Assembly: GCA_002691205.1 (NCBI GenBank) | Contig: NZHD01000059.1 | Coordinates: forward strand, 1 to 54,770 | Origin: Deltaproteobacteria bacterium | Lineage (GTDB): Bacteria; Myxococcota_A; UBA9160; UBA4427 | Direction: 5' to 3' | DNA length: 54,770 nt | Part shown: in pieces, positions 13,775 to 36,101 of the stretch | How the letters are laid out: each line of letters opens with the position of its first letter | Position numbering within the stretch: the stretch's first letter is position 1 | The notes under the pieces: generated by a model | What the model saw: only the letters and a program-made list of their open reading frames with translations | Databases searched by the model: none | What the model was told of the DNA's origin: nothing | Program-made: the position numbers and the translations under genes

Positions 13775-14746
13775 TCAGAGGAAAGCCACAAGCAAAATTA
13801 AGGCGAAACACAATGGATAAATGACGCGCGCCAAAACATCGATTCTTCTGGCCAGCATTAAACGGTCTTCATCTTGCGCCAGCACGCCCGTCAGGACGGC
13901 TTCACCCAGCGCCCCAAAGACCAAGAACATGCAGCCCACAAGGAAGAAATCGGCACGAGTTAGATAAGAAATACGAGGTAATATATCGCTGAGGGCAAAG
14001 TTATATGCGATCAAGGTAAACACAGTACTGGTCGCAACTCCAATCTGCGTTCCAATCAAGGTCGGATCCAGCCAAAATACCGCGTAAGCCATAAACACAA
14101 TCAAGCCTAGTGGAATAAACAACTTCCACGTAAAAAACAGGCTATTCCTTTTCGCCCTGTACTGAGCAGTCACGAGAGATAAAGAGGTCACACCGTCTGG
14201 TGCAATCCCCCGACTCTCTCGCACCCCCTCATCCACGACTTCCCAACCCGCCACGGTAAAGGGCTTCATCGGACCCGATCGGACCTCATCTTTCACAAGC
14301 ACACGACCAGCATGCTCCATACTGCCGACCTCAAAGACCACTTCCTGCTGATCCACAGGGAAGTCCTCAAGATTCATGGGCACCGTTAATGTGCCTTGGT
14401 AGCGCTGTCGATAAGCGACGGCTCCGGCCGGGTCCACCTCAACGACATCATCCAACTTCTTAAGCAACTTTCGGCTATTCATGACAAATAGTCGAGGAGA
14501 ATCCACAGCTGCTAGCGGAAAGGTTCGAAGCCCTACTGCCTCCGCATCCGCGAGATCGGGTTGTTGCCATCGAGCAATCACAACAAAGTCTACAACAACC
14601 GCCTGCTCAAGTTCTTTAACCTGCGAAATATCAATTACAAAAATTCCAACTTCGACGGGAGATGTCGAAGGCCTGTCTCCATCCGCTTGGGACAAGCCTG
14701 AAAACAGCACAAATGCGAAAACCCATAAAGTAAGCTCTCTTGGCAT
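13775..14746 (-). CDS. Prokaryotic pentameric ligand-gated ion channel (Cys-loop receptor superfamily)
   Basis: This 323-residue channel has the architecture of GLIC and ELIC. It starts with a signal peptide (to about residue 22). A beta-sandwich extracellular domain follows with the superfamily loop LEDFPVDQQ, lacking the eukaryotic disulfide cysteines as other bacterial members do. Next come four transmembrane helices: M1 (FIPLGLIVFMAYAVFWL), M2 (IGVATSTVFTLIAYNFALSDILP), M3 beginning at YLTRADFFLVG, and M4 at the C-terminus. The short Asp/Glu-rich M3-M4 loop is prokaryote-like. The pore helix is Ser/Thr-lined, with Asp near its extracellular end and a conserved LP turn. The frame could start at TTG 14749, but the adjacent ATG at 14746 is preferred. 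The ligand is unknown. Confidence 0.9.
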   Translation of the reverse strand: MPRELTLWVFAFVLFSGLSQADGDRPSTSPVEVGIFVIDISQVKELEQAVVVDFVVIARWQQPDLADAEAVGLRTFPLAAVDSPRLFVMNSRKLLKKLDDVVEVDPAGAVAYRQRYQGTLTVPMNLEDFPVDQQEVVFEVGSMEHAGRVLVKDEVRSGPMKPFTVAGWEVVDEGVRESRGIAPDGVTSLSLVTAQYRAKRNSLFFTWKLFIPLGLIVFMAYAVFWLDPTLIGTQIGVATSTVFTLIAYNFALSDILPRISYLTRADFFLVGCMFLVFGALGEAVLTGVLAQDEDRLMLARRIDVLARVIYPLCFALILLVAFL

Positions 14747-14903
14747 CAATTCAGACTAACCAAGAACGGCCCACCTCGCATGGTTCAAGATAGACCCTCA
14801 GACATCCATCCCAGCCCCCCACACCCTCGATCTACGAGACCTCGACCCGGCGCGCTCCTATTTTAAGTCCGTGGTATCCTGACCGCGAATCAAGGAGACC
14901 CAC

Positions 14904-15783: not shown

Positions 15784-16701
15784 CTACGGCCACAAAAGGG
15801 TGCGAACGCTAGACGGCCAACGAGTAGGCTGCATTCCGTGACGACGAAAAAGGGCTAGAGCGATCCGCTCTACACCAAAGCCAAGACAAGCCGTGTGGGC
15901 ATACTCCCCATCATTGGACAAAATCCCAAAGGTCTCCCCAAAATGACTCGTGTGGTAGTTAAACGAGGTCACGGCCGTCGGGTGTTCACGAGAGACAATG
16001 GGGACTTGCATCTCGAACTTAAGCTCCTGCTGTTTCTGGCTTGCAGACAACATGCGGCCGCCACGACCAAAAAAGGGATCAGAAGCCACCTCTACAACCA
16101 CATCCAACCCCAGAGAACGAAGAACCGACTCGCCTCGTTCCATCCAGACGCCTCGCCACTCCTGGACAAGCTCAGGGGGCCCCATACGCACCATTTCTCT
16201 CTGACGAAACATCTGAAGTCGGGCTGGATCCTCAGAAGGCTCTCGACGAAAAACATACCCCGCATCGAGATCGACCAAGCGCCCTCCCTCTTTAAGCGTT
16301 CCCGAGGCGGTTGGGTAAAGCGGATAGCAGGCGGCCGGCGTGAGCGCGAGGTCTGTCGCCTCAAGGAAGCCACTCCAGTCTTCACCCTCTTTGATCGCAC
16401 TCAGCAACTTTTTATGTTCGCCCTCGTCACCCGAGAAGCTGTGAACGACACCGCAGAGATGGGGCATAGTTTCCATGTAGCCCGCTCTCTCAAGAGTTGT
16501 TTTTTGAACGAGAGGAGGGAAAAATATCCGCTCTGCACCGTCAGACTCTGAGTACTGCCCCACCAGCAGACCGAACTGTCGCACTACATCCTCAAAGGCT
16601 CCGCCGCGTCCATAGAACCCAGCTACACCGGTCGGGATAAAAAGCCCATTCTCCACAAGTTCGTCGAAGAACGCGTTCCGCTCTTTTTTCAGATCGGACA
16701 C
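15784..16701 (-). CDS. Amino acid:carrier protein ligase (seryl-tRNA-synthetase-like catalytic core)
   Basis: This 305-residue class II aminoacyl-tRNA-synthetase fold has no tRNA-binding arm. It resembles the amino acid:[carrier protein] ligases first described in Bradyrhizobium (Bll0957 type). Those enzymes adenylate a small amino acid (Gly or Ala) and transfer it to the phosphopantetheine of a carrier protein. Motif 2 is FRREP...RLQMFRQREMV and motif 3 is GFGVERIALALF. Likely zinc ligands are Cys125, Glu169 and Cys272, with spacing almost identical to the known enzymes (44 and 103 residues). The hallmark DPFFGRGGR (208-216) is present. The GTG start at 16701 has AGGAG six bases upstream, overlapping the stop of the preceding ACAD gene, so translation is probably coupled. 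It is the third gene of the CP-ACAD-ligase operon. Confidence 0.92.
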   Translation of the reverse strand: MSDLKKERNAFFDELVENGLFIPTGVAGFYGRGGAFEDVVRQFGLLVGQYSESDGAERIFFPPLVQKTTLERAGYMETMPHLCGVVHSFSGDEGEHKKLLSAIKEGEDWSGFLEATDLALTPAACYPLYPTASGTLKEGGRLVDLDAGYVFRREPSEDPARLQMFRQREMVRMGPPELVQEWRGVWMERGESVLRSLGLDVVVEVASDPFFGRGGRMLSASQKQQELKFEMQVPIVSREHPTAVTSFNYHTSHFGETFGILSNDGEYAHTACLGFGVERIALALFRRHGMQPTRWPSSVRTLLWP

Positions 16702-16710
16702 AGACGGCTC

Positions 16711-17868
16711 CTAAACTGATTTATGGACCAGTAGCATCGATGCATTTGTCTCGTGAATCCGCTGATTGCTAATCATCAAGCTGCCGGAACATACATCTCT
16801 GAGTTGCCGGCCTAGACTAGCCTCACCGTCGTTCTTGTAGGCTCCTATCCCAACGATCCTCATAGCCTCCGTGACGATTTCGACCGCAATTTCAGAGGTG
16901 TTGATCTTTAAGTTATTCTCTCTCAATGCGAATCCAAGACTCTTAAGGTTGCTGTGATCCGAACTGGACGCGATGGACGTGTATTCATCTGTGAAGGTCT
17001 TGACCAAGGATCGCATGACCTGCAACTTGCCGGAGAGCTTTGAGAGTTCGTAGGCGACGGGTGGCACCTGTCCGGGCTGAGAGCGGGCCTTACGCCGCAC
17101 CACTTTGCTTGCCTTGTCCACCGCCTCAGTGGCTGCTCCGAGCCAGCAGTGGGACCAGAGGCTGTGGGCCCAGGGGACCTGGGTAATCGCCGCGACCGTC
17201 GAAAAGGGAGCGTCTAAAATTTGCCAGGGGGCACCCGCTACCTTCAAGACGCCCCCGGGACTGCTCGTCCCCCGCATACCCAAAGTATCCCACGTACCCA
17301 CTTGCTTCAGGTCGTAGGTCCCCTCAACCGCGAGAATGGTGGCTTGATCTCCTGAATTTGAATCCTCGCCTTTTCGAGCCTGAAAAAGAATATCCTGCGC
17401 CATTTGCCCGTAAGAGACCGCGGTGCACTGTTTCTCAATCGTAAAGCCCTTCTCATTGGGACTCACAAAGCAGACGCTCTGACGCATATCGCCGCTTGGA
17501 CCCATCTCTGAGGTTCCCGAGGAAATCAATCGACACTCAGACGCCACGCTTCGGACGTAAGCGACCATCTCATCGCTCTCGAGCCCATGATTCACCAGAC
17601 TCGCGACTTGTATGTGATGCATCGCCACAATCATTGAAGTCGAAGTGCACTTCCTTCCAAGAATCATGCACATCTGCCCCAGTTCACTCAAACTACAGCC
17701 GATTCCACCCAATTCAACTGGGATCGCTGCCCCCATCATCCCCGCCCGTTTAAGAGCATCGATGCTCTCAACCGGAAAGCGCCCTTGGATATCCACATCG
17801 GCCGCTGCCGGCCCAGTGATGGTCTTGGCGATTTCCTCTACGGCAGAAAGGAGTTCAGACGGTGTCAT
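16711..17868 (-). CDS. Acyl-CoA-dehydrogenase-like flavoprotein acting on a carrier-protein-bound residue
   Basis: This 385-residue FAD protein of the acyl-CoA dehydrogenase superfamily has an N-terminal helical domain, a middle beta domain (ILAVEG, then LKQVGTWDTLGMRGT) and a C-terminal four-helix domain. The loop that normally carries the catalytic Glu (I/L-Y-E-G-T) instead reads MISNQRI near the C-terminus. The base must therefore lie elsewhere, or the reaction differs from acyl-CoA oxidation. It sits 15 bases after the carrier protein gene and 9 bases before the ligase gene on the same strand, so an aminoacyl-S-carrier-protein is the natural substrate guess. Oxidation of such thioesters by ACAD homologues is known from prolyl-carrier-protein to pyrrole chemistry. 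The product here is unknown. Confidence 0.87.
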   Translation of the reverse strand: MTPSELLSAVEEIAKTITGPAAADVDIQGRFPVESIDALKRAGMMGAAIPVELGGIGCSLSELGQMCMILGRKCTSTSMIVAMHHIQVASLVNHGLESDEMVAYVRSVASECRLISSGTSEMGPSGDMRQSVCFVSPNEKGFTIEKQCTAVSYGQMAQDILFQARKGEDSNSGDQATILAVEGTYDLKQVGTWDTLGMRGTSSPGGVLKVAGAPWQILDAPFSTVAAITQVPWAHSLWSHCWLGAATEAVDKASKVVRRKARSQPGQVPPVAYELSKLSGKLQVMRSLVKTFTDEYTSIASSSDHSNLKSLGFALRENNLKINTSEIAVEIVTEAMRIVGIGAYKNDGEASLGRQLRDVCSGSLMISNQRIHETNASMLLVHKSV

Positions 17869-17883
17869 AGAGACATTGACCTC

Positions 17884-18159
17884 TTATTCGCCCTTGAACA
17901 ATTCCTGGATGGCGTTACTGATCGAAGACACGGTCTGGAAGACTTCTCGGCGAAGCATCTCCTCAGGAAACTCAAGGTCGAAGCGTCCCTCAAGGGCCAA
18001 CATGACATCCACACTCGCGTGAGAAGTCATCCCAACGTCGTACAGGTCATCATCATCACTAACCTCAAGTGGGCCGTCTCCAAGACGGCCATAGGCCTCT
18101 AGAATACCGCGAACGGTGACTACAATGTCTTCAACTTTCTCTTCTTTCACAGGAGCCAT
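17884..18159 (-). CDS. Free-standing carrier protein of the amino acid:carrier protein ligase type
   Basis: This 91-residue acidic four-helix carrier protein has the modification site DVGMTSHAS. The probable phosphopantetheinylated Ser46 is in a T-S-x-A-S context rather than the common D-S-L. That context, followed by VMLALEGRF and FPEEML, is characteristic of partners of the aaRS-like ligases. The ATG at 18159 follows GGAGGAG, which fixes the start; an in-frame ATG at 18174 lies upstream of that site. It is the first gene of the operon with the ACAD and ligase, divergent from the NRPS at 18520. It probably hands its amino-acyl or oxidised amino-acyl group to the NRPS condensation domain. No phosphopantetheinyl transferase is encoded in the window. 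Confidence 0.92.
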   Translation of the reverse strand: MAPVKEEKVEDIVVTVRGILEAYGRLGDGPLEVSDDDDLYDVGMTSHASVDVMLALEGRFDLEFPEEMLRREVFQTVSSISNAIQELFKGE

Positions 18160-18519
18160 GTCTCTCCTCCACAAGGCAAATTTACAGTAGCCGACGGACT
18201 CTAAGGGGTCGAGCCGAGATTCGCGAAGCCAACCAGATCACGGCTTCCACGACCTCGCTCTCAAGTTAAAATATCTCTTTCAATGGCTCGCTCATCATTT
18301 GCTTATTTATTTCATAGACAGCACCACTTAGATGCCTATCAATCTCTAAAAGGACTCCTCTAATCGGAAGCCTGAGCAGTAAAATTGACCCTTAAATAAG
18401 GAACCCAAGCGATTCACCACAGTGCCTCAGCTCAGCTTGAGCTTCATCACTTCAGACTCTAACCGTCCTCAGCGCGTCCTTAGGCTTGCAAATCCCTAAG
18501 ATCATCTCTACATTGGAGA
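18160..18519. promoter_or_regulatory. Divergent control region between carrier-protein operon and NRPS
   Basis: These 360 bases must contain the promoters of both halves of the biosynthetic locus, implying joint control. An AT-rich stretch around 18265-18320 could hold promoter elements, but I see no consensus -35/-10 pair. A 40-base segment at 18377-18416 resembles one at 11371-11405. No regulator gene lies in or beside the region. Confidence 0.5.
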
Positions 18520-21500
18520 ATGCTTGGTCTCTCCCCCTTCGTGGAGCAACTGGAACCCTTGGCAACTGTGACCTCAAAGAAGTCCATCCGACGGGCGTCC
18601 AGCCCAGTCTCGATGGGGCAAAGGTCTCTGCTCGTCGCCCATGAGCGGTTCACTGAGTTTGACGCCCTCAACACGGGGCTTTCGATTGAGTTTGTGGGGC
18701 CACTCGATGTCGAGGCTCTAGAAAAGAGTATCGAGATCATTGCGGGCCGTCACGACGCCCTCTCCATGAATTTTGACTCCACGGACCCAGAGTTTAAGGC
18801 CTTCATCCGGCGCGAACGCCCCGACGTCTTTTCCTTCATAGACCACAGCCACCTCAGCAAATCTCAGAGAACAGAGGAACTTCGCCAATTCGAAGAGCGG
18901 GAAATGACCCAGCGACTCGACTTAGCGGAGGACCTACTCTTTAGGGTCACGCTCGTGCGCCAGGAAATTGAGCGACACAGCCTAGTCGCGATCAGCCACC
19001 ATACCATCAACGACGGAACTTCTTTCTTTAAAATCTTCCCCTCTGAGCTCTCACGCCTTTACCAGGCCATCACAAGGAATGAGCCCGACCCACTTCCCGT
19101 TGTCGCCGGTACATTTCAGGACTTCGCAAAACAAGAGAATCTGAATAACGAAGGATCATCTCTCGCGCGAGGATTGAGATACTGGAAGAAGCACTTGCAC
19201 GATGCGCCATCGCACATCGAGTTTCCAACCGACCGACAACGCCCCCCTCTAGCCACCGGGGCCGGTGCCCGTTGCACTCCCGATCCCGCGTTAGGGTTGA
19301 TGAAGCGAATCAAAGACTACGCCCGAGACAACTCCACCACTCCAATGAACGTGACACTCGCCGCTTTTTACGGGCTTCTTCACCGCTACTCAGGCCAACA
19401 AGACATGGTCATTGGAGTGCCCGTCAACAACAGGCTTGGGCGAGAGTACGCAGACACATTTGGCCCCTTCATGAATACACTTCCTCTCCGGTCTACCATC
19501 GAGACGGGAGATACATTCTCTTCTGCCCTAGAAAGAGTAACCAAGACGACTTTTCGGGCATTCATGCGGATGCAAACTTCTTTTGAGAGGATCGCGAGTG
19601 CACTCCCCCGGAACGGAGATGCGAGTCGAAGCGCTCTTCATCAAATCGTGTTCAACTATATGCCTTTCTACCCCCAAATTTTCAAAGTCGAAGGGCTCAC
19701 CACCGAAGTGAGAAGGCTGGCCGCCAAGGGCATCACGGTCGATTTTATTGTTGAACTTGAGGACCGTGGGGACGATGCGAACATCGCCATAAACTACAGT
19801 ACAGATCTTTTCGATGAAGCCACAATGCAGCGCTTCGCTTCTCATTATCTCAAGTTTCTAGAGCTGTGCATCGAGCAACCCAACAGAGAGCTGAGCACGC
19901 TCGACATTCTCTCTGAAGAGGAGAAGCGGTTTCGAAACGATTTCAACCACACGCCATTAGCTTCTCCCGGACATTCTACAATCCATGCCATGTTTGAAGC
20001 GAGCGTCGCTCAGTATCCGAGTGCCATGGCTGTCTCAGATGCTAAATCGAAGTTAACTTATTCCCAGCTCGACCAAAAAGCGAATACATTTGCCCGGAGA
20101 CTTAGCCGCTTAGGCACCAAAGAGGGGTCTTTAGTTGGCCTCTACACTGACCGCAGCTTGGATATGATCGTAGGCGTGTTGGGCATTTTAAAAGCCAATG
20201 CGGCCTACATCCCACTCGACCCGAATTTCCCGAGCGACCGCATTCAATTTATGATTGAGGATTCAGGACTTCAGGTCATCGCGACCCAAGAGGCCCTCTC
20301 CGCCCAATTAACCGACTCCGGGGCTCACCTCATTTCGATCGACGTCGCCGAAAGTGCGATCCCTGATGAAAGAGCCGCCCCAAAGCCCACCGAAGCCTCT
20401 GACCAAATGGCCTACATCATCTACACCTCAGGATCTACAGGAAAACCCAAGGGCGTTGAGGTGACTCATGCCTCCGTCGTCAACTTCCTTTCATCAATGG
20501 CTCAAACTCCAGGATTATCGCAAACCGACACGATGCTGGCGCTCACTACCTTGAGCTTTGACATCTCGGTTCTTGAACTCTTTCTCCCTCTCACAGTCGG
20601 GGCCCAAACCGTCTACGTAGAGCGAGACGTGGCCGTGGATGGCGATGCCCTCCGCGCAGTATTAACGAAGAAATCAATCAGCTGCATACAAGCTACACCG
20701 GCCACCTACCGAATATTAATCGAGTCGGGATGGACCGGGAATAAAGACATGACGGTGCTCTGTGGCGGAGAACCGTTCCCCGGTGACTTGGCCAAAGCCT
20801 TAGTCGAAGGGTGCGGAAGCGTCTGGAACATGTATGGCCCAACCGAAACGACCGTCTGGTCCACAGTGCACCGTATCCAAGACCCCTCTCAGCCCATGTC
20901 AATCGGTCGCCCCATCGGAAATACTCAAGTCTATGTTCTCAACGAAGGCATGACTCAAACCCCAGCAGGGGTGACAGGCGATCTTTACATTGGCGGAGCT
21001 GGCGTCACTCGGGGCTACCATCAGCGCGAAGAACTTACCTCCAAGAATTTCATCAAGGACCCATTTTCTGAGACGGGGCGCCTTTATAGAACGGGCGATC
21101 TTGCTCGATTCGATCACACCGGGGCGTTAATTTGTCTCGGCCGCTCAGACACCCAGGTCAAAGTTCGCGGGTACCGTATCGAGCTTGGAGAGATCGAGGA
21201 GTCCACAAAGCAAATTCAAGGAATCACCGACGCCACTGCCGCAGTGATCGAGATGGGTACAGCAGGCCCAGAGATCGCCGTCTACTACCTCGCGGAGGAG
21301 GAGACACAGGACGCCACCTTCCGGGAGCACCTCAACAAGCTTCTCCCAAGTTACATGATTCCTCGGATCTACATCAGACTCGAAGAGTTTCCCCTGACCC
21401 CAAATGGAAAGATCAACAAAAAAGCCCTTCCCATTCCTGACAGGCTTCGAAGGCAGACCGAAACGCAAGGCACCCTTCCTCGAAATGACACGGAAGTCCG

Positions 21501-22551
21501 GCTGGCAGAACTGTGGGCCGAAGCGCTCGGACTCACGACCCTTGGAATCGATGATGACTTTTTTGACCTAGGCGGACACTCTCTCACAGCCGTATTCCTC
21601 GTCAGAGAAATACGGAAGATCTACGGCGAAAACTTAAACATCGGAACATTTTTTAGAAACCCGACCATTCGACAACTCTCCGAGGCCCTTTACGACAAAA
21701 CCTCCGACGAAGAAGGCTCCGCCGTCCGCCTCCATCAGGGAACCGAGGGCCCTCCACTCTTCCTTTTAGCCGGAATTCACCTCTACCTCGAATTTGCCAA
21801 GGCACTCAACGGCCCGACCATTCATGGGGTATTTATGCAGCAAGAGTTTACCGACGACTCGGGACGCTCTTGGGACCTTCGATATGAAAAAATTGAAGTC
21901 CTCGCGGAAAAATACGTCAAGACAATCCAAGAAATACAACCGCACGGCCCCTATGCCTTAGGGGGTGTCTGTTTTGGAGGGGCTTTGGCATTCGAAGTCA
22001 CTCGCCTCCTTCAGAAAAAAGGAGAAGAAGTCGCGTACCTTCTTCTCCTTGAAACCGTGTTGACGACGGCACGCATTCCAACGGTAAAGCACTGGATACG
22101 TCTCCAACTTAAGGGAGCCCTTTTCTTCGGGCTTCGAACGGCACGTCAAAGCCTTAAAGCTCTGCAGTCTCTCTACAAAGGCCTTACCGCCCGCAAAGAG
22201 GCCCACGCTCAGTCGACCAGCCAGATGGAGGAACAGAAAGCCCTTGGCGAGACACGCACCGAGCGGCTCGACCGCGCGATGAACAGGTTTCACCCAGAAA
22301 CCGTCATCACCCCAAATTTTACAGTCGTTATCCGGGCCGCAGACGAGAGAATTTCAGATGGATTCCGCGTGGACACGCTCGGAGGCATGTCAAAATTCAT
22401 CAACGGTCCAATCGAGTATCACTTAATTAAGGGGAATCACCTAGGAATCTTAAGCGCTCCGCATGTGGAAGCACTGGCTACTGCTGTCCGGCCCAGCCTC
22501 CTCCGTAGCCAGCCGCCCTCGGCCGACCCGGACCCCGAACCCGAGGCCTGA
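18520..22551 (+). CDS. Single-module nonribosomal peptide synthetase, C-A-PCP-TE
   Basis: This 1343-residue synthetase begins with a condensation domain (about 28-470), whose active-site HHTINDG lies at 160-166. The adenylation domain (about 485-975) has YTSGSTGKPKG at 635-645, FDISVLE at 680-686, NMYGPTETT near 770, YRTGDLARF near 856, and the A10 lysine K964. A carrier domain has LGGHS with Ser1021. The C-terminal thioesterase (about 1070-1330) has a nucleophile elbow reading GGVCFGG with Cys1151. Glu1178, at the surfactin-TE Asp spacing of 27 residues, and His1307 complete the triad. The read-out of specificity positions is D-I-L-A-V-C-M-V-W-K. The N-terminal C domain has no donor module in cis, so the acyl donor is expected to be the carrier protein encoded divergently at 17884. 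GGAG lies only one base before the ATG, so the start is uncertain. Confidence 0.96.
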   Translation: MLGLSPFVEQLEPLATVTSKKSIRRASSPVSMGQRSLLVAHERFTEFDALNTGLSIEFVGPLDVEALEKSIEIIAGRHDALSMNFDSTDPEFKAFIRRERPDVFSFIDHSHLSKSQRTEELRQFEEREMTQRLDLAEDLLFRVTLVRQEIERHSLVAISHHTINDGTSFFKIFPSELSRLYQAITRNEPDPLPVVAGTFQDFAKQENLNNEGSSLARGLRYWKKHLHDAPSHIEFPTDRQRPPLATGAGARCTPDPALGLMKRIKDYARDNSTTPMNVTLAAFYGLLHRYSGQQDMVIGVPVNNRLGREYADTFGPFMNTLPLRSTIETGDTFSSALERVTKTTFRAFMRMQTSFERIASALPRNGDASRSALHQIVFNYMPFYPQIFKVEGLTTEVRRLAAKGITVDFIVELEDRGDDANIAINYSTDLFDEATMQRFASHYLKFLELCIEQPNRELSTLDILSEEEKRFRNDFNHTPLASPGHSTIHAMFEASVAQYPSAMAVSDAKSKLTYSQLDQKANTFARRLSRLGTKEGSLVGLYTDRSLDMIVGVLGILKANAAYIPLDPNFPSDRIQFMIEDSGLQVIATQEALSAQLTDSGAHLISIDVAESAIPDERAAPKPTEASDQMAYIIYTSGSTGKPKGVEVTHASVVNFLSSMAQTPGLSQTDTMLALTTLSFDISVLELFLPLTVGAQTVYVERDVAVDGDALRAVLTKKSISCIQATPATYRILIESGWTGNKDMTVLCGGEPFPGDLAKALVEGCGSVWNMYGPTETTVWSTVHRIQDPSQPMSIGRPIGNTQVYVLNEGMTQTPAGVTGDLYIGGAGVTRGYHQREELTSKNFIKDPFSETGRLYRTGDLARFDHTGALICLGRSDTQVKVRGYRIELGEIEESTKQIQGITDATAAVIEMGTAGPEIAVYYLAEEETQDATFREHLNKLLPSYMIPRIYIRLEEFPLTPNGKINKKALPIPDRLRRQTETQGTLPRNDTEVRLAELWAEALGLTTLGIDDDFFDLGGHSLTAVFLVREIRKIYGENLNIGTFFRNPTIRQLSEALYDKTSDEEGSAVRLHQGTEGPPLFLLAGIHLYLEFAKALNGPTIHGVFMQQEFTDDSGRSWDLRYEKIEVLAEKYVKTIQEIQPHGPYALGGVCFGGALAFEVTRLLQKKGEEVAYLLLLETVLTTARIPTVKHWIRLQLKGALFFGLRTARQSLKALQSLYKGLTARKEAHAQSTSQMEEQKALGETRTERLDRAMNRFHPETVITPNFTVVIRAADERISDGFRVDTLGGMSKFINGPIEYHLIKGNHLGILSAPHVEALATAVRPSLLRSQPPSADPDPEPEA

Positions 22552-22642: not shown

Positions 22643-23659
22643 TTAATCCGAAGCTTCTCCACGAAGTCGGCCCAGTAGTTCCGGCCACTCTTCTCCGGAA
22701 ACCCCCTGCGAATAAAAACCGGTCCGACTAATCACACCGGCAAATCGCCGCCTCATCTCATCGATGACCTTTTCGGGTCGCCCGATCAAGGCAAACGTCT
22801 CCAGAACCTCGTCCGTAATCAGATTGGCCATTGCCGCTTCGTCATGCGCGCGATTAAGCTCGATCAGTTCGTCCTGTAAGGCTCCCCAGCCGTGTAACTC
22901 CAGAACAGGACGATACGCCCGAGTACACCCATAAAACGCAATCCGGTTACGGACAGCTAAGACAGCACGCTCCAGCTCCTCGTCGTCCGTGCCCACCGCC
23001 AACATCGGCGCATAATCAAGGTCAAAATCCTTGAGACCGAGGCCTCGCTCATCCAGTCCTTCCTGAATGGCCGGCAAAGTGACCTCGTGCATATATCGTT
23101 CCGTAGAGAAGGGATGCATGATCATTCCATCCGCTACACGGGAGGCCACTTGCGTCATCAATGGGCCTGTCGCCGAGAGAAAAATTCGCGGACGTGGCGC
23201 CCCAACCTCTTCCGGCTTAAACGTAGACGGCATTAGAGTGTGTTGGTAGTACTCTCCCTCAAATTCGAGACGCTCCCCTTCATACCAGCACGAAAAGATC
23301 GCCCTCATCGCCTCGATGAACTCTTGCATCTGCTTCGCAGGCTTATGCCAGGGCATACTAAAGCGCCGCTGTACATGAGGCTTAACCTGAGAGCCGAGAC
23401 CTAAAACAAAACGCCCCCCTGAGAAGGCATTCAAATCATGAGCCAAGACTGCCATCGACATGGGATTGCGCGAAAAGGCTACAGCCACCGAGGTCACCAG
23501 TTCTAGCTTTTGAGTAGCTGCGGCCGCTAGTGCCAAAGGCATAAAAGGATCGTGATTCAGCTCAGATAGCCGCACACCGTCATATCCACTGGCCTCAAGA
23601 CGACTTGCCTTCTGCCCTATATTTTTCATATCTGCGGTCACCACCGCATCCACTTTCAT
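22643..23659 (-). CDS. LLM-class flavin/F420-dependent oxidoreductase
   Basis: This is a TIM-barrel enzyme of the bacterial luciferase-like superfamily using reduced FMN or F420. The 339 residues from the ATG at 23659 open with MKVDAVV, and the core carries GGRFVLGLGSQVKPHVQRRF, typical of the subfamily in which a long post-motif (W, then a sizable EGEYY strand) precedes the specificity loop. It ends with a region on preventing misreading of the substrate gate (IDEMRRRFAG). An in-frame TTG at 23704 is possible but less likely. It is convergent with the NRPS. LLM monooxygenases occur in peptide clusters, but this one resembles stand-alone catabolic or redox members, so I do not assign it to the cluster. 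Confidence 0.88.
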   Translation of the reverse strand: MKVDAVVTADMKNIGQKASRLEASGYDGVRLSELNHDPFMPLALAAAATQKLELVTSVAVAFSRNPMSMAVLAHDLNAFSGGRFVLGLGSQVKPHVQRRFSMPWHKPAKQMQEFIEAMRAIFSCWYEGERLEFEGEYYQHTLMPSTFKPEEVGAPRPRIFLSATGPLMTQVASRVADGMIMHPFSTERYMHEVTLPAIQEGLDERGLGLKDFDLDYAPMLAVGTDDEELERAVLAVRNRIAFYGCTRAYRPVLELHGWGALQDELIELNRAHDEAAMANLITDEVLETFALIGRPEKVIDEMRRRFAGVISRTGFYSQGVSGEEWPELLGRLRGEASD

Positions 23660-23717
23660 CGCCCCAAGTGCCTCATCTCCCCACCACCGACCATCATATC
23701 GCAAAGTTTACGCTGCA

Positions 23718-35219: not shown

Positions 35220-36101
35220 ATGGACTTTGGACTGATCTCGGTCAACACCGGCTTTCGCACCAGCGAGGGCCTTATCAAATTTGCCCAACATGCCGAATCA
35301 GTCGGGGTTGAATCCCTCTGGACCTTTGAGCACACCATCATCCCCCTTGAGTATGAATCCAAGTATCCCTACAGCGAAGACGGAAAAATGGGCGGCACGC
35401 CTGATATCAATATCGTCGATCCGCTCATCGCACTCGCGGCCGTCGCTTCAGCCACGAAGACTATTCGCCTGGGCACGGGCATCAACGTTCTTCCTCAAGC
35501 CAATCCTATTTACTTAGCCAAGCAGGCCGCCTCCATTGACTTCATGTCCAATGGTCGGCTCATGCTCGGGCTGGGACTCGGATGGCTCAAAGAAGAATTT
35601 GAAGCTCTCGGCGTGCCCTGGGGCCGCCGAGGGGCTCGATTCGATGACTACGTCGTCGCCATAAGGAAGATGTGGGCCGGCGATGTAGTTGAACACCAAA
35701 GTGATTTTATATCTTGGAGTGGGTTCCAGAGCTATCCAGTCCCGCTTCAAAAAGCCGGCGTCCCCCCTCAAGATTCAAGCATCCCCATCATTGTAGGCGG
35801 GGACAAGGGCAAAGTCTTTCGTCGAGTCGCCAAACTCGCCGACGGATGGTACCCCGCTACGGTCGTCCCCGAGTACCTCGAGCCGTTAATTCCGCAACTG
35901 GAAGCCGCCTGCAGCGAAGAGGGACGAGACCCAAAGACCATCGAGATCACCTCAATGTGGATCCCTGCCATGACAGGCGCCGACGCGATCAAGAAATACG
36001 AAGATCTCGGCGTGACCCGTCTAGTGGTCCCTACCCAAGCGCTTGAAGGCGCGACGTCGGCCGAAAAGGTGGACCGATTCGTAGATAATTTCATGTCCTA
36101 A
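35220..36101 (+). CDS. LLM-class oxidoreductase, Rv2161c/TIGR03619-like
   Basis: This 293-residue TIM-barrel flavin or F420 enzyme fits the TIGR03619 group of LLM proteins, starting MDFGLISVNTGF. It shows the cofactor-contact region LGTGINVLPQANPIYLAKQAAS, GRLMLGLGLGWLKEEFEALG and the later IPIIVGGDKGKVFRRVAKLADGW (typically PIWVGG in the family). Reduced FMN or F420 would drive hydroxylation, reduction or ring opening of an unknown substrate. AAAGGAGACA precedes the ATG at 35220. It lies 118 bases after the amidohydrolase on the same strand and may share its transcript. It is one of six LLM genes in this window. Confidence 0.9.
   Translation: MDFGLISVNTGFRTSEGLIKFAQHAESVGVESLWTFEHTIIPLEYESKYPYSEDGKMGGTPDINIVDPLIALAAVASATKTIRLGTGINVLPQANPIYLAKQAASIDFMSNGRLMLGLGLGWLKEEFEALGVPWGRRGARFDDYVVAIRKMWAGDVVEHQSDFISWSGFQSYPVPLQKAGVPPQDSSIPIIVGGDKGKVFRRVAKLADGWYPATVVPEYLEPLIPQLEAACSEEGRDPKTIEITSMWIPAMTGADAIKKYEDLGVTRLVVPTQALEGATSAEKVDRFVDNFMS

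Follow-up and report, generated by a model that had tools for sequence, protein, structure and literature searches.

The 54,770 nucleotide window analysed here is one entire contig (NZHD01000059.1) of a Deltaproteobacteria bacterium assembly (GCA_002691205.1, genome G000; 4.55 Mb in 120 contigs, 94.11% complete). Three of its genes, encoding a free-standing carrier protein (CP), a flavoprotein with acyl-CoA dehydrogenase (ACAD) fold and a seryl-tRNA synthetase (SerRS)-like amino acid:carrier protein ligase, lie together on the minus strand and are divergent to a plus-strand gene for a single-module nonribosomal peptide synthetase (NRPS). This four-gene arrangement is real and well above chance, and all four genes are at the positions given in an earlier reading of the DNA (the original prediction). 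We consider the chances evenly balanced that the trio is an aminoacyl-donor cassette that feeds the NRPS: glycine or alanine would be adenylated by the ligase and transferred to the free CP, where the flavoprotein would oxidise it, the condensation domain of the NRPS would join this donor residue to glycine on its own peptidyl carrier protein (PCP) domain, and the thioesterase would then release the product. Only the pairing with an NRPS is new; the trio and its usual neighbours are already known.

The ligase gene (15784 to 16701, GTG start, 305 amino acids) scores above the curated cut-off of the NCBIfam family NF005479, 'amino acid--[acyl-carrier-protein] ligase' (406.6 bits, cut-off 357), and has Bll0957 as its best solved relative (3mey, 266 bits); its proposed identity as a Bll0957-type ligase is thus borne out by homology. 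The protein contains the motif DPFFGRGGR and has no tRNA-binding domain, its match to the archaeal SerRS profile (518 positions) being confined to positions 312-502. Cys125, Glu169 and Cys272, which we take to be zinc ligands, align with Cys/Glu/Cys in Bll0957, and none of them varies across the 16 aligned rows (the window ligase and 15 close relatives). The CP (17884 to 18174; 96 amino acids from a TTG start, or 91 from an in-frame ATG at 18159) belongs to the aminoacyl carrier protein family NF005480 (84.7 bits, cut-off 72); among solved structures it is closest to Atu2571 and to the aminoacyl carrier protein in 4h2w (4h2w_C). The predicted TSxAS phosphopantetheine site is present as TSHAS in the context GMTSHASV (Ser51, numbered from the TTG). 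Judged by sequence, it is very likely that the ligase loads this CP.

The flavoprotein gene (16711 to 17868, 385 amino acids) lies between these two, 15 bases from the CP gene and 9 bases from the ligase gene, and genes, motifs and gaps of the tight operon are all as originally described. Matches to PF02771 and PF00441 (Pfam) agree with the predicted ACAD-like fold, and so does a structure model (pLDDT 91.0, pTM 0.91). In fold comparisons of the model, dehydrogenases tie with flavin monooxygenases, and the protein is not clearly set apart from dehydrogenases as one of the N-oxygenating ACAD-fold types (KijD3, nitrososynthase). It is likely that the flavoprotein oxidises the residue on the carrier. 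Prolyl-PCP dehydrogenases (RedW type, NF045652) are alike in being ACAD family enzymes that act on an aminoacyl-PCP, but the window protein is far below the cut-off of their profile (26.6 bits, cut-off 650). Another possible parallel is CaeB1/ColB1, the trans-acting flavoprotein of caerulomycin and collismycin synthesis, which acts on NRPS-bound cysteine, with Glu372 as the likely base; the motif-placed equivalent of this Glu is not conserved in the trio flavoproteins.

The NRPS (18520 to 22551, 1343 amino acids) has Condensation, AMP-binding, PP-binding and Thioesterase matches in this order, which confirms both the predicted C-A-PCP-TE architecture and the predicted lack of a donor module in cis. 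With an HHxxxDG motif and a carrier serine in addition to the four ordered domains, it has the features of an elongation-termination module. The condensation domain (amino acids 29-470, 18604 to 19929) carries HHTINDG at amino acids 160-166. Its best solved matches are Txo2 (137.6 bits) and tyrocidine synthetase 3 (133.2 bits), presumably both elongation types; the condensation domain of CDA synthetase I, which we take to be a fatty-acyl starter type, reaches 50.9 bits. The adenylation domain (amino acids 492-970, 19993 to 21429) is predicted to select glycine: its pocket letters, read off printed alignments at what we take to be the Stachelhaus positions, are DILQLGMVW, compared to DILQLGVVW in AB3403 (4zxh) and DILQLGLIW in DhbF (5u89), both presumably glycine-activating. 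The internal PCP (amino acids 994-1057, 21499 to 21690) has the motif LGGHSL and the thioesterase (amino acids 1084-1324, 21769 to 22491) has GVCFGG, in which Cys1151 takes the nucleophile position. Besides the internal PCP, the contig has a single carrier-protein match, the CP of the trio.

AB3403, which we take to be the A1S_0115 protein, shares with the window NRPS the domain order, a near-identical pocket and the cysteine at the thioesterase nucleophile position, and is the best match among solved chains for both the adenylation domain core and the thioesterase. The NRPS could thus make an acyl-glycine or lipopeptide in the manner of the Acinetobacter A1S_0112-A1S_0119 operon (Ac-505), from a fatty acyl-CP donor, with the CP of the trio loaded by another enzyme. 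Like the window, that operon combines an ACAD and a free CP with a thioesterase-bearing NRPS (PMC5376624), and some of the PF00501 matches of the genome, 38 of 39 of which are on other contigs, could supply acyl groups. However, the Acinetobacter activating enzyme resembles fatty acid-ACP ligases whereas the window enzyme is aminoacyl-tRNA synthetase-like, and the Acinetobacter genes form, unlike those of the window, a single polycistron with an RND pump (PMC5376624). No fatty acyl-AMP ligase is found beside the trio, the sole PF00501 match of the contig being inside the NRPS. The condensation domain matches AB3403 only partially (69.9 bits, against 137.6 for Txo2), and the CP falls in the aminoacyl family. 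We regard a fatty acyl donor as improbable.

The gene neighbourhoods of related ligases were compared in a survey that started from 133 loci with a ligase match above 150 bits; 119 of these were distinct (14 were duplicates by ligase core sequence), and 84 remained once 35 with less than 3.5 kb on one side had been set aside. The surveyed loci themselves supplied the profiles for ligase, CP, ACAD, DUF1839 and GH2; the query for condensation domains was that of the window NRPS, which may miss distant ones. The set is biased to best-scoring relatives (80 of 528 were kept, and 7 of 94 plasmid records examined); the count includes neither the contig fragments L222 and L223 nor ligase matches that score below the family cut-off, most of them about 30-38% identical. 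Within 10 kb of the ligase, CP and ACAD were each found in 80 loci, DUF1839 in 78, GH2 in 76 and a condensation-domain match in 4. Of the 78 loci with both CP and ACAD, 76 have DUF1839 as well; the two that do not are the window and a Priestia plasmid. There is no DUF1839 match within 10 kb of the window trio nor in the whole genome as assembled (the control search was positive in G023, G027, G238 and G263, with no match in G018 and G443), and no match to a GH2 glycosidase within 10 kb. Of the control genomes, G238 belongs to the window's phylum but to a different class. The NRPS would therefore take the place that DUF1839 usually holds; a condensation domain, too, makes amides out of CP-bound groups.

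The common form of the locus is well documented. In 6 of the 7 annotated plasmid regions the genes for CP, ACAD and ligase are consecutive, and in 5 of these (Azospirillum, Rhizobium, Mycetohabitans, Caballeronia and Shinella) DUF1839 and a GH2 or beta-mannosidase gene come next. The Bll0957-type operon of Bradyrhizobium and Agrobacterium (CP-ACAD-ligase-DUF1839-GH2) has the same three families in the same order as the window trio but also has DUF1839 and GH2, neither of which is found beside the window trio, where the divergent NRPS stands in their place. A note added in proof in 2010 describes an ACP, a redox enzyme, a conserved uncharacterised open reading frame (ORF; Atu2574) and a glycosidase around the ligase; its authors expected the ORF product to attach the amino acid to a surface sugar and argued against a role in nonribosomal peptide synthesis (PMC2922099). 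From its place in the operon we infer that Atu2574 is DUF1839. The suggestion that the window holds an undescribed system thus stands for the NRPS pairing, since no paper listed in our literature searches deals with an amino acid:carrier protein ligase paired with an NRPS; it does not stand for the trio and its neighbourhood, which had been described in that note.

In a structure model, DUF1839 (PF08893; L071, 7550 to 8467, and relatives) adopts the CcbD/AziU3/CtaG fold along almost its full length, which suggests that DUF1839 is a carrier-protein-dependent amide synthetase. In lincosamide synthetase, an amino acid bound to a CP is joined to an amine by the cysteine-protease-like CcbD. The fold that CcbD, acting with the CcbZ carrier domain, shares with the DUF1839 model would thus belong to the usual partner of the trio; in the window, by contrast, no CcbD-like enzyme is found and the amide step is proposed for the NRPS condensation domain. 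Elsewhere the same trio would pass its aminoacyl group to DUF1839; here the condensation domain appears to take over. Tentatively, and with somewhat less than even confidence, we propose a swap of the amide-forming enzyme, in which the cassette has moved from a CcbD-like synthetase to a condensation domain: flavin-oxidised glycine or alanine and glycine would form a dipeptide-like product, released by the cysteine thioesterase, perhaps as a strained ring.

The same survey data can be read differently, namely that the trio in the window does its usual job and aminoacylates a cell-surface sugar or another amine via an acceptor that is encoded elsewhere, is unrecognised or lies in the missing part of the genome, with the NRPS an unrelated neighbour that has another donor. 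The prevalence of DUF1839 and GH2 around the trio and the 2010 prediction of transfer to a surface sugar (PMC2922099) speak for this, as do the single occurrence of an NRPS beside the trio and the lack of a close NRPS homologue among the relatives examined. Against it are the missing DUF1839 match in the assembled genome, the missing GH2 match near the trio, and an NRPS that has no donor module in cis on a contig with just one other carrier match. We hold this explanation to be possible, if doubtful.

Several observations weigh against a donor cassette for the NRPS. An NRPS directly beside the trio is present in 1 of the 84 loci only, the window itself. Trio and NRPS are divergent over 345 bases (18175 to 18519) and hence not co-transcribed; a scan of positions 18100-18600 gave no match to a sigma-70-like promoter or a terminator. 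DUF1839 could be encoded in the roughly 6% of the genome that the assembly may lack, and other frames of the genome with both AMP-binding and PP-binding matches could act as donors. At position 373 of the flavoprotein, which we take by its motif to be the usual ACAD catalytic Glu position (another base is possible), the window has Glu, as do 14 of 52 family rows, while 26 of 52 have Ala. Within the window's class, the ligase was found in 3 of 90 genomes, its own included, and the other two (G023 and G027) have the DUF1839 form; the locus is therefore patchy and may have been assembled recently. Behind a ligase fragment at a contig end in genome G403, which is outside the 84-locus count, lie DUF1839 and GH2. 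The NRPS has no close relative: among the 120 listed of 667 matches, from a search that scored the 7991 candidates sharing most words, the best other homologue is 39% identical over 77%, and its first 480 residues match in 13 of 90 class genomes (own included), the best other at 30% identity and 196.7 bits. As a weak further point, 5 close ligases apparently share a contig with a listed ACAD and none of those contigs was seen among the listed NRPS matches, in a comparison of 14 ligase, 11 ACAD and these 120 NRPS matches. The refuting observation that the original prediction had named, homologous clusters that consistently lack the NRPS, thus largely applies, although the empty DUF1839 slot sets the window apart. 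That the NRPS uses the ligase-loaded CP is plausible, given the lack of a donor in cis and this empty slot, but comes from a single locus in 84; we put the hand-over of the CP-bound residue to the NRPS at about even, and the earlier interpretation as a whole is partly supported.

DUF1839 is also missing from a few other surveyed ligase loci: besides the window, these are L048, L049, L074, L185 and L186. Such loci would be consistent with a trio that makes a small product of its own, for example an oxidised or hydrolysed glycine or alanine derivative, with no acceptor enzyme and independently of the NRPS. Release from the CP would however need a thioesterase, and the only one among the 18 window proteins scanned is the domain of the NRPS; we consider such a product very improbable. 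In the Priestia aryabhattai plasmid (L048, 7133 to 15692) the trio lacks DUF1839 and has alanine genes nearby; the region comprises acpS, CP, ACAD, ligase, DMT transporter, ATP-grasp, alpha/beta hydrolase, alanine permease and alanine racemase. A Tsukamurella plasmid (L049, 7086 to 14345) has ligase and CP but no ACAD, among glycosyltransferases and a phosphopantetheinyl transferase.

Apart from the window, condensation-domain matches were found in L055, L185 and L186. L055 keeps trio, DUF1839 and GH2, and its match is 9.6 kb off. L185 and L186, from the Nannocystis family genomes G443 and G431, have an NRPS 7 kb away. Their ligase/NRPS loci (L186, 9539 to 14087 and 14431 to 19950; L185, 5672 to 10397 and 3 to 5459) have no CP, ACAD or DUF1839 match within 10 kb. 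The ligases, 55-56% identical to the window ligase, have genes for an ABC transporter and a PLP-dependent (PALP) enzyme as neighbours, joined in G431 by an ornithine cyclodeaminase-like gene, and a divergent ORF contains one Condensation match along with two AMP-binding and two PP-binding ones; these may be loci for diaminopropionate-containing lipopeptides. In the ligase tree, the window ligase groups with P0002-P0008, P0011 and P0012, and the ligases of G443 and G431 are placed away from it; a single origin of the ligase/NRPS association may be compatible with this tree.

The closest ligase relatives are 57-69% identical to the window ligase, and the set P0002-P0012 spans 54-69%. Searches for their carriers in the order, the class and the Nannocystis family and class gave 56% as the best full-length match, a single-protein scan of genome contigs returned 39 stretches with none confirmed, and a plasmid search with P0004 yielded nothing useful. 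A 62% ligase match in G403 was rejected as a close relative: it spans the last 81 residues only, a stretch that is 64% identical in several ordinary loci. Many Myxococcota (G367, G433, G441, G442, G444-G446, G448 and others) have a second, divergent ligase-like group, mostly with about 30-38% identity, which scores under the family cut-off where tested. The Gammaproteobacteria metagenome-assembled genome locus L097 has two tandem ligase matches (353 and 360 bits), one at 1342 to 2235 and the other about 0.9 kb upstream.

The G+C content of the locus does not stand out in a composition scan. On the strand opposite to the NRPS and 91 bases past its end is a luciferase-like oxidoreductase gene (22643 to 23704; TIGR03617, F420-dependent type), which could encode a tailoring enzyme; a second luciferase-like oxidoreductase gene is found at 35220 to 36101. 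About 1 kb past the ligase end, with a DUF547 gene in between, lies a gene for a bacterial pentameric ligand-gated ion channel (13775 to 14749).

The role of amino acid:carrier protein ligases has been disputed since 2010. The title of a 2010 paper on these enzymes reportedly proposes a link to nonribosomal peptide synthesis. Such a role was proposed by the discoverers, and another group argued that the amino acid goes to surface sugars (PMC2922099). The window and the two Nannocystis family loci are concrete cases of such a ligase near an NRPS, and the DUF1839 model provides the common form of the trio with a candidate amide synthetase of the CcbD/AziU3/CtaG fold. A trio that feeds the NRPS would be a direct link from ligase to NRPS, joining two amino-acid-activating machineries, and if the amide-forming enzyme has indeed been swapped, the trio would be a portable aminoacyl-donor module, useful for pathway engineering.
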